Shown: in pieces, positions 13,547 to 43,757 of the stretch
Layout: every line of letters begins with the position of its first letter
How positions within the stretch are numbered: the stretch's first letter is position 1
From: Catenulispora sp. MAP5-51
Lineage (GTDB): Bacteria; Actinomycetota; Actinomycetes; Streptomycetales; Catenulisporaceae
Length of the DNA stretch: 64,000 nt
Reading direction: 5' to 3'
Assembly (NCBI RefSeq): GCF_041261205.1
Contig: NZ_JBGCCH010000003.1
Location: 496,001-560,000, forward strand
The notes under the pieces: generated by a model
Databases searched by the model: none
What the model was told of the DNA's origin: nothing
Seen by the model: the letters and a program-made list of their open reading frames with translations, nothing else
Translations under genes and position numbers: made by a program

Positions 13547-14260
13547 ATGAAGCGCAGCAAGGGTTACCGCAACGCCGCGGCGAAGATCGACGCCGACGAG
13601 GTCTACGCCCCGCTGGCGGCCATCCGCCTGGCCAAGGAGACCTCGGTCACCAAGTTCGACAGCTCGGTGGAGGTCTCGATGCGCCTGGGCATCGACCCCC
13701 GCAAGGCCGACCAGATGGTCCGCTCCACGATCGTGCTCCCGCACGGCACCGGCAAGACCGCCCGCGTGCTGGTCTTCGCCCAGGGCGACAAGGCCGAGCA
13801 GGCCCGCGAGGCCGGCGCCGACATCGTCGGTTCCGACGAGCTGATCGACGAGGTCGCCAAGGGCCGCCTGGACTTCGACGCGGTCGTGGCCACCCCGGAC
13901 CTGATGGGCAAGGTCGGCCGCCTGGGCCGCGTGCTCGGCCCGCGTTCGCTGATGCCGAACCCGAAGACCGGCACCGTCACCGCGGACGTGGCCAAGGCCA
14001 TCAACGACATCAAGGGCGGCAAGATCGAGTTCCGCGCCGACCGCCACTCGAACCTGAACTTCATCATCGGCAAGGTCTCCTTCTCCGAGCAGCAGCTCGC
14101 CGAGAACTACGCCGCCGCCCTGGAGGAGGTCCTCCGCGTGAAGCCGAGCGCCGCCAAGGGCCGCTACCTGAAGAAGGTCACCTTCGCCACGACCATGGGC
14201 CCCGGCATCCAGGTCGACGCCAACCGCGTGCGCAACGTCGCGGGCGACGACGAGGCGTGA
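13547..14260 (+). CDS. rplA: 50S ribosomal protein L1
   Basis: 237 residues, normal length. AAGGAGA lies 6 nt before the ATG. Conserved segments include [20 protein letters not shown], the two-domain hinge with [10 protein letters not shown], and the RNA-binding [16 protein letters not shown]1 forms the stalk at the E site and in many bacteria represses its own rplKA message. A strong terminator follows at 14336, so rplKA does not run into rplJL. Confidence 0.98.
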
Positions 14261-14370: not shown

Positions 14371-14605
14371 CGAGGCTGGGGTCTTTGGCTGCGGTTGGGT
14401 TGTGGGATTAAAGGCATTTTTACGGCTTCGCGCATGGTTTACGGGATCCGCTGGTAGCGCAGTCCGGTCGAGCCACTCGTTTCGCGCTGGCGGCCGGCGG
14501 CTGGCGGCTGGCGGCTGGCGGGCTGGCGGTTTGCGTGTTCACGAGCGCGCATGAGTCCGAGTCACTGCGCATGCGTCATTGCTGGCGGGCGGCTGCCGCG
14601 TTTGG
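14371..14605. other. Non-coding spacer with GGCGGCT tandem units
   Basis: No reading frame with a ribosome site was found. From 14497 the 7-mer GGCGGCT repeats three times perfectly and then degenerates (GGCGGGCT, GGCGGTTT). The rest shows no structure I recognise. Confidence 0.6.
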
Positions 14606-14722
14606 TGGGTGCCTAAGATCAAAGGCAGGTGCCTCCGGCGGGTGCTCTACAGCGGGGGGCGCCCCCTGCGGACCTCCTGCAACCGGCGGCCCGCGACTGT
14701 TCGGCTTTGTCTTCGTGCGTGG
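14606..14722. repeat. Dispersed intergenic repeat, copy A
   Basis: About 117 bp that recur at 41705-41820 with roughly 9 differences. It begins TGGGTGCCTAAGATCAAAGG and ends TTCGTGCGTGG, with a GGGGCGCCCC palindrome in the middle. Both copies lie in spacers between translation operons, in the same orientation. Read on the minus strand the copies give a similar Pro-rich peptide, but the frame is not supported by a start site, so an RNA or DNA element is more likely. Confidence 0.9.
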
Positions 14723-14764
14723 TGGCGCCGCGTGGCTCGCCGGCGGTGTTGCTTGTGGTCGCCA

Positions 14765-14922
14765 TGTTCCGGGTCCCCCGCCGCGTCGTCGCCTGACGGA
14801 AGCAGGCCGGTCCGGTGGTGTAAAGCCGGATCGCTGCTGCTGGGGTGCTGTTTCGTGCGGCTTGACACCACCGGACCGGCCAGCTTGGCTTCGCCCGTCG
14901 ACGCGGCGGGGGACCCGGAACA
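14765..14922. repeat. MITE-like long inverted repeat
   Basis: The outer arms 14765-14788 and 14899-14922 are perfect 24-bp inverted repeats (starting TGTTCCGGGTCC). The inner arms 14801-14828 and 14858-14885 match at 26 of 28 positions. The centre is 29 nt. The whole 158 bp would fold into one long hairpin. No transposase and no clear target duplication are visible. It lies between the dispersed repeat and the L10 leader. Confidence 0.85.
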
Positions 14923-14969
14923 CAACCCCCTCTGTGGGGTGGAGGGTCCACGTGCTTGGTCCGTTCGAC

Positions 14970-15213: not shown

Positions 15214-15738
15214 ATGGCGAGGCCTGACAAGGCGGCTGCGGTCGCCGAGATCGCGGATCACTTCCGCGGCTCGAACGCCGCCGTGCTGACCGAGTACCGC
15301 GGGCTCACTGTCGCGCAGCTGAAGGAGCTTCGGCGCGCGCTCGGTGCGACCACGGATTACGCCGTGGTGAAGAACACGCTGACCAAGGTCGCTGCTCGCG
15401 AGGCCGGTATTGACGGTCTGGACGAGTCGGCGTTGAAGGGTCCGTCGGCCATCGCCTTCATCAAGGGCGACCCGGTCGAGGCTGCCAAGGGTCTTCGTGA
15501 CTTCGCCAAGGCGAACCCCCTTCTGGTGATCAAGGGCGGGGTGATGGAGGGCAAGACCCTCACCCCGGCCGACATCACCAAGCTCGCGGACCTTGAGTCC
15601 CGCGAGGTTCTGCTGGCCAAGGCGGCCGGCGCGATGAAGGCGTCCCTCGCGAACGCGGCGGCGCTCTTCCAGGCTCCTTTGTCGAAGGCCGTCCGCACCG
15701 TGGACGCGCTGTCGGCTCAGAAGCCCGCCGACGCCTGA
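15214..15738 (+). CDS. rplJ: 50S ribosomal protein L10
   Basis: 174 residues from ATG 15214 ([10 protein letters not shown]), with GAAGGAGG 6 nt upstream; the open frame upstream overlaps the attenuator and is not translated. The N-terminal rRNA-binding domain has [20 protein letters not shown] and [12 protein letters not shown]. The C-terminal helix that carries L12 dimers is at about 135-170. It is the stalk base and the expected autoregulator of rplJL. Confidence 0.98.
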
Positions 15739-41150: not shown

Positions 41151-41591
41151 ATGACGCTGAAGGTCCACCACCTCCGCCCGGCCCCGGGCGCCAAGACCGC
41201 CAAGACCCGCGTGGGTCGCGGCGAGGGCTCCAAGGGCAAGACGGCCGGCCGCGGTACCAAGGGCACCAAGGCCCGCTACCAGGTGTCGGCCCGCTTCGAG
41301 GGCGGCCAGATGCCCCTGCACATGCGCCTGCCCAAGGCGCGGGGCTTCAAGAACCCGTTCAAGGTGACGTTCCAGGTCGTGAACCTGGACAAGCTCTCGG
41401 CGCTGTACCCGGCCGGCGGCGAGGTCACTGTCGAGGACCTGGTCGCCAAGGGCGCGGTCCGCGACAACGAGCTGGTCAAGGTGCTCGGCACCGGCGAGGT
41501 GTCGGTCGCGCTGCAGGTGAAGGCGCATGCCTTCTCCGCCTCGGCGAAGGAGAAGCTGGCTGCGGCCGGCGGCTCTGCTGAGGAGGTCTGA
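41151..41591 (+). CDS. rplO: 50S ribosomal protein L15
   Basis: 146 residues. It contains [38 protein letters not shown] and [17 protein letters not shown]. Last gene of the S10-spc cluster here: a T-tailed terminator follows, and secY is 820 bp away, unlike E. coli, where they adjoin. Confidence 0.98.
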
Positions 41592-41676: not shown

Positions 41677-41704
41677 GGGCTCAGGGGGTTGTGTGTGGGT
41701 TGCG

Positions 41705-41820
41705 TGGGTGCCTGAGATCAAAGGCAGGTGCCTCCGGCGGGTGCTCTACAGGGAGGGGCGCCCCCTGCGGACCTCCTGAAGGCGGCGGTCCGCGACTGTT
41801 CGGCTTTGTTTCGTGCGTGG
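41705..41820. repeat. Dispersed intergenic repeat, copy B
   Basis: 116 bp matching copy A (14606-14722) at about 92 percent. It starts TGGGTGCCTGAGATCAAAGG and shares GGCAGGTGCCTCCGGCGGGT and CGCGACTGTTCGGCTTTGT. It starts 29 bp after the rplO terminator, as copy A stands after the rplA terminator. Confidence 0.9.

Positions 41821-42410: not shown

Positions 42411-43757
<1,347 letters not shown>

Follow-up and report, generated by a model that had tools for sequence, protein, structure and literature searches.

A repeat found in two spacers of a 64,000-nt stretch of the genome of Catenulispora sp. MAP5-51 (the window) belongs to a genus-wide family of gene-less, kilobase-sized palindromes, of which both window copies are decayed remnants. 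Very probably, these repeats are fragments of non-autonomous, MITE-like palindromic elements which would be mobilised in trans by a transposase of the ISL3 family. An earlier note on the window had considered a mobile element, and this is borne out by 27 matching places in the genome, by complete relatives whose ends are inverted repeats and which have 8-bp target duplications, by sites at which congeners differ in carrying the element, and by the match to an ISL3 element. The strain's own genome (G000, 10.9 Mb in 87 contigs) was analysed together with congeners, among them G001, G002, G003, G008 and G009.

The repeat as first described, with copies at 14606–14722 and 41705–41820 in the same orientation, proved to be real. 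The copies (117 and 116 nt, one single-base indel) are 92–93% identical, and a 24-mer from inside the repeat occurs exactly twice in the window, compared with 0.00 occurrences expected from shuffles. Copy 1 lies between the genes for ribosomal proteins L1 (ending at 14260) and L10 (starting at 15214), copy 2 between those for L15 (ending at 41591) and SecY (starting at 42411), as assigned by Pfam families. Both copies are preceded by a hairpin with a T-run, recognised in the sequence by eye, in agreement with the proposed location downstream of a terminator. The setting in translation-operon spacers is not special, since these two spacers represent only two of 27 matching places in the genome.

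When counted genome-wide, the repeat was found at no fewer than 27 places (E ≤ 3.8e-7; 40 of the 66 first-look candidates were scored). Comparison of the copies with their flanks revealed similarity beyond the repeat on both sides. Some of the places are inverted pairs, and the stretch around locus L021 is self-complementary; self-comparison identified L021 as a relative in complete form, about 1.05 kb long. With this stretch as query, 181 matching pieces were obtained from the genome. A map of 72 loci, many of them overlapping, shows the module plan O – (K) – B – (centre) – B' – (K') – O'. Within this plan, the repeat described in the note corresponds to K, an inner module of the interspersed family, which is confined to an older subfamily; a younger subfamily is devoid of K. 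The repeat had been described as a 116-bp unit, and this is true of copy 2, which consists of K alone, but not of copy 1, where similarity reaches far past the 117 bp (blastn against copy L005 covers positions 1298–1849 of locus L001; see Table 1). Copy 1 contains O, K and B and lacks the second half of the element; several other K-bearing copies are likewise halves. Copy 2 has lost the modules flanking K, part of which G008 still has at this site.

Table 1. Features of the two repeat copies and their surroundings (positions in the window).
Feature	Position	Strand	Description
Terminator-like hairpin and T-run after L1 gene	14335–14371	+	upstream of copy 1; by eye
Window copy 1	14392–14943	+	one half (O, K and B) of a palindromic element in the rplA–rplJ spacer; boundaries approximate
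Outer-arm module O	14405–14593	+	L001 1311–1412 and 1439–1499; module split by about 26 extra bases
O motif ACGGCTTCGCGCATGGTTTACGGGATCCG	14422–14450	+	G000:C3:510422–510450 in the end-motif search
Module K, copy 1	14595–14730	+	reported repeat, extended (boundaries from the genome search)
Hairpin module B	14765–14923	+	imperfectly palindromic, about 159 bp; included in an alignment with 27 further hairpins from the genus
Terminator-like hairpin and T-run after L15 gene	41636–41676	+	upstream of copy 2; by eye
Module K, copy 2	41704–41820	+	K alone, in the rplO–secY spacer (boundaries from the genome search)

The palindromic architecture is evident from six copies (L149–L152, L154 and L155) that are self-complementary over 0.92–1.06 kb at 76–85% identity, and from L153, which has a central insert and is self-complementary over 1.17 kb at 71%. 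A 29-base motif in the outer module has 103 matches, 56 in forward and 47 in reverse orientation, compared with none for the reversed control pattern. The longest reading frames of three complete elements (L149, L086 and L047) gave no Pfam match. The only gene seen inside an element is that of a Mutator/IS256-type transposase, nested there together with inverted ends of its own: in L148 (G000:C9:278900–282400), positions 1091–2446 encode a 451-residue protein (PF00872) at the centre of the palindrome, the apex of which is occupied as if it were a landing site. According to codon composition, which gives a rough estimate, 21 of 26 surroundings were readable; the genes beside the element are convergent in 12 cases, co-directional in eight and divergent in one.

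Other copies show rearrangements of their own. In L153, L093 and L094, the stretch between the two B modules exceeds its usual length by about 210 bp. The extra central stretch of L153 is bounded by GGTGTAAG and CTTACACC, like a second small nested mobile element at the apex. At L012/L125 (G000:C1:758977–759272), a half-element has its outer end motif joined directly to central-module sequence at a shared GGGATCC, as expected for the product of a deletion between short direct matches.

Complete elements of the younger subfamily carry GGCGCCCCTGACCTATGTGTGGGTG at both ends, about 75 bp outside the 29-base motif, and GGCGCCCCTGACC... is found at the end on either side. An outer boundary at TTTTTACGG was discarded when flank comparison moved it about 75 bp outwards. 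Paired ends were obtained for 26 of 27 candidate loci; L020 could not be paired. An end with at most 8 mismatches in 25 positions was regarded as recognisable. Eleven of the 26 paired elements have such ends on both sides, and in the other 15 one or both are missing. Among the 11, eight measure 1,028–1,089 bp, one has 899 bp and two contain inserts (1,295 and 2,541 bp). Their 8-bp flanks are duplications with no more than one mismatch in six cases, five of which are exact, and differ at 2–6 positions in the remaining five. Altogether, the flanks agree at 63 of 88 positions versus 32.7 in shuffled pairings, a level reached in none of 20,000 shuffles. L051, L039 and L090, where duplications were seen by eye with small shifts, were left out of this count.

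The duplications are 61% AT in comparison with 31% AT (69% GC) for the window, and AT-rich octamers are the common feature of the sites. Insertion into intrinsic terminators is not the rule, as a strong hairpin is located directly upstream at only three of 12 sites (L148, L058 and the insertion sequence of G001 described below). For the K-bearing elements L014, L016, L021 and L025, we found neither convincing ends (8–12 mismatches in 25 positions) nor duplications (4–7 mismatches in eight). The exact 29-mer end motif had no record in a named genome collection, which may omit this genome. With three mismatches allowed, it was found in G000 and G008 alone among 14 genomes of the family, whereas module K occurs, whole or in part, in seven of ten genomes of the genus, the own genome included. 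The end motif is therefore young, and K and hairpin B are wider in distribution. In the draft assembly of G000, at least 28 of the 100 end motifs listed are no more than 700 bp away from the end of a contig; contigs therefore break inside the palindromes. Near contig ends, the variant ATGGTTGGCGGGATCCG of the end is common, which suggests recent copies.

A search of the own genome for transposases of the ISL3 family gave six matches. One of these, a remnant (G000:C1:523314–523769), stops at GGCGCCTCTGACCTATGTGTGGGTG, which is one mismatch away from the consensus of the 25-bp palindrome end; beyond these shared 25 bp the sequences compared differ. Within the family, the remnant is best matched by a complete 1,403-bp ISL3 element in G001 with a 425-residue transposase, assigned to ISL3 by both Pfam and NCBIfam (PF01610, NF033550). 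The 27-bp inverted ends of this element, GGCGCCCCTGACTTATCCGTGGGTTGT, deviate from the palindrome end at four of the first 25 bases, and it is flanked on both sides by the duplication CATTTTTC, within the T-run of a terminator. The family search found no intact transposase with palindrome-type ends in the own genome, and G008 yielded nothing related to the remnant at E ≤ 1e-10. On contig C34, the own genome has another ISL3 gene of full length, whose ends seem to be different (GGCTCTTCG..., a weak match). Inverted ends were also sought by eye in 19 of 31 ISL3 relatives fetched from named genomes, mostly of actinobacteria. Nine of the 19 read TGTGTGGG- and several others CGTGGGT-, like the G001 element; L218 and L229 showed no convincing inverted ends. 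At least five of the 19 (L212, L214, L215, L221 and L230) have exact AT-rich 8-bp duplications. At L196 (G003:C158, 228–1483), an ISL3 copy starts at the margin of a palindrome 1,256 bp long, beside the terminal TTTTTA run; the ISL3 insertion sequence seems to hit palindromes as well.

The nearly identical ends and the duplications of equal length suggest that an ISL3 transposase would have mobilised the palindromes in trans. This link is direct for the younger, K-less subfamily only. The older subfamily, including the window copies, would have moved in the same way, judging from the modules that it shares with the younger one.

Close species differ in whether an element is present. On reading, the rplA–rplJ spacer contains no element in G008, G009, G002 and G003, and in G001 unrelated DNA is located upstream of rplJ; these spacers have diverged too far for the empty site of copy 1 to be drawn exactly. 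In the rplO–secY spacer, G008 has a longer element at the same place, while G001, G003 and G009 have none. At the site of L150, G008 contains other DNA. Copy 2 shares 93% identity with copy 1 and 69% with the element that occupies the same site in G008; hence, either another copy has overwritten it or its origin is separate. The same figures would fit a non-mobile segmental duplication or a gene conversion between the two spacers. Being closer to copy 1 than to the G008 element, copy 2 does point to conversion or re-insertion. As the sole explanation, however, such an exchange is hardly credible: it is contradicted by the 27 genomic places and by complete relatives with duplications.

The symmetry of the elements has a history that can be read from their arms. 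For 16 elements of the own genome, arms within a copy are 80% identical on average, and the figure between copies is 82%; when each arm is compared with its nearest like arm in another copy, identity is mostly 88–95%. Amplification thus followed when the palindrome was already imperfect. Recent arm-to-arm conversion as a general cause of symmetry in this genome is not supported by these identities; one of the 16, L154, speaks for conversion in its own case, as its arms are each other's nearest relatives. Elements of G000 and of G002 or G003 are only 47–61% identical, whereas the arms within each element are 71–84% alike (n = 8). Since arms stay alike while lineages diverge, the symmetry has been kept or renewed over time.

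The best-kept part is hairpin B. In 28 chosen hairpins from seven genomes, 96.4% of the cells pair, and an internal loop holds its place even between lineages that are only about 50% identical. Two-sided changes were found in 213 cells (60.7 in shuffles), changes on both sides at 29 of 46 pairs (21.6 in shuffles), and the covariation score is 0.452 (0.142 in shuffles), with the structure taken from this very alignment. Pair types (42) do not outnumber those in shuffles (45.8); the other four measures do exceed the shuffled values. Near-identical hairpins differ mostly on a single side (12 to 1). The share of double-sided differences rises with divergence and always exceeds the independent expectation, which is compatible with selection and template switching alike.

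The earlier note had also considered a small RNA, with covariation among the copies as a sign of it. Strong covariation was indeed found in the adjoining hairpin B, but G-U intermediates are few there, a pattern that points to DNA. One-sided G-U changes account for eight of 1,284 cells, six of them at one end pair, and A-C cells, which correspond to G-U on the other strand, for 29 of 1,284 by manual count. Among 73 distinct hairpins of the own genome, 2,794 of 2,847 pair cells are Watson–Crick, 36 are G-T and ten A-C. Twenty-six of the 36 G-T cells are at one doubtful column and five at a small local pair, leaving five against ten A-C. The G-T and A-C counts were discarded as a strand test, as they favour no consistent strand (36:10 in the own genome, 8:29 across the genus). 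As far as alignments can tell, RNA is disfavoured by how rarely G-U occurs on either strand. In addition, the nearly symmetric element privileges neither strand, module K folds no better than its shuffles (z 0.42 and 0.85), and an Rfam scan of the window at gathering scores revealed tRNA only. A small structured or cis-acting RNA encoded in the repeat and then duplicated is thus highly improbable, the genus-wide covariation of hairpin B notwithstanding. Nor is the minus-strand frame likely to be a gene: three frames tried gave no Pfam match, and in ten of 18 sequences compared with copy 1 the length difference is not divisible by three, one or two of these being partly due to trimmed ends.

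The same pairing might reflect a functional DNA structure, a cruciform or a single-strand hairpin, that is recognised by a protein and maintained by selection, the element being domesticated. The degree of pairing in B at about 50% lineage identity, the fixed position of its internal loop and the location of 12 of 21 elements between convergent genes would all suit such a role. We regard it as unlikely, because close species differ in whether they carry an element and because, according to an excerpt of PMC8794818, template switching during replication can yield the same pairing pattern without function. Palindromes of the REP/BIME type, spread by a RAYT (IS200-like) transposase, are likewise intergenic and multicopy, as are ERIC and similar repeats intergenic and palindromic; those are much shorter and spread in another mode. 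The size of REP sequences is 20–40 bp according to an excerpt of PMC3733652, in contrast to about 1 kb here, and the 8-bp duplications and the inverted ends of about 25 bp, nearly identical to those of an ISL3 element, leave this origin with a next to negligible probability.

Mobilisation by an ISL3 transposase is the reading that we prefer, and it places the palindromes beside known systems without making them identical to any. With ISL3 insertion sequences of the same genus they share nearly the same ends of about 25 bp and AT-rich 8-bp duplications; unlike these, they lack a transposase, and no similarity was noticed inside the ends. Eukaryotic DNA transposons of the foldback type have very long inverted repeats that make up most of the element. 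The palindromes resemble them in this respect, but are bacterial and have ISL3-type ends. Type II MITEs are described, in an excerpt of PMC10969869, as non-autonomous elements which share only terminal inverted repeats with an insertion sequence and which in prokaryotes are typically shorter than 500 bp. Like these, the palindromes are gene-less and intergenic, have inverted ends of about 25 bp in common with an insertion sequence, and occur in tens of copies, many of which are truncated; the younger copies have 8-bp duplications. They differ in their length of about 1.05 kb and in that nearly the whole element is one branched palindrome. The younger subfamily thus agrees with type II MITEs in ends, 8-bp duplication and absence of an internal transposase, though not in length; in the four complete K-bearing copies tested, no convincing ISL3-type ends or duplications were found. 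As the 500-bp limit is given as typical only, we consider the family a MITE-like variant despite its length. A search of titles and abstract openings, with few subscription journals among those covered, found no published description of these elements.

The following course of events would account for these data. A complete element, a near-perfect palindrome of mostly 1.03–1.09 kb with no recognisable gene, would have had its ends of about 25 bp recognised by an ISL3-family transposase encoded elsewhere. It would have inserted into AT-rich 8-mers of intergenic DNA, mostly downstream of genes, and duplicated 8 bp. Later, one arm may have been lost (copy 1), or everything except K (copy 2), and copies probably exchanged sequence among themselves. 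The inner hairpin appears to have been kept paired across the genus, by the rarity of G-U more likely at the level of DNA. The likeliest cause would be template switching during replication, in which one arm has time and again served as template for the other. It is conceivable, though we hold this only tentatively, that these selfish kilobase palindromes keep their own symmetry, the hairpin being repaired arm against arm, or selection acting on a folded DNA form recognised by the machinery of transposition or of the host. Either process, template switching or selection on folded DNA, would lead to strong covariation without any RNA.

A repeat that resembled a conserved RNA is thus explained as mobile DNA. 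Hairpin B, with covariation far above that in shuffles and few G-U pairs, suggests that covariation can be strong where no RNA is involved. Given the usual instability of long palindromes, dozens of them, each about 1 kb long, in one bacterial chromosome are unexpected. The elements matter for genome assembly in the genus, since at least 28 draft contig ends adjoin element ends. If these palindromes do keep their own symmetry, they would represent a natural long-term experiment on the survival of long palindromes in a bacterial chromosome.
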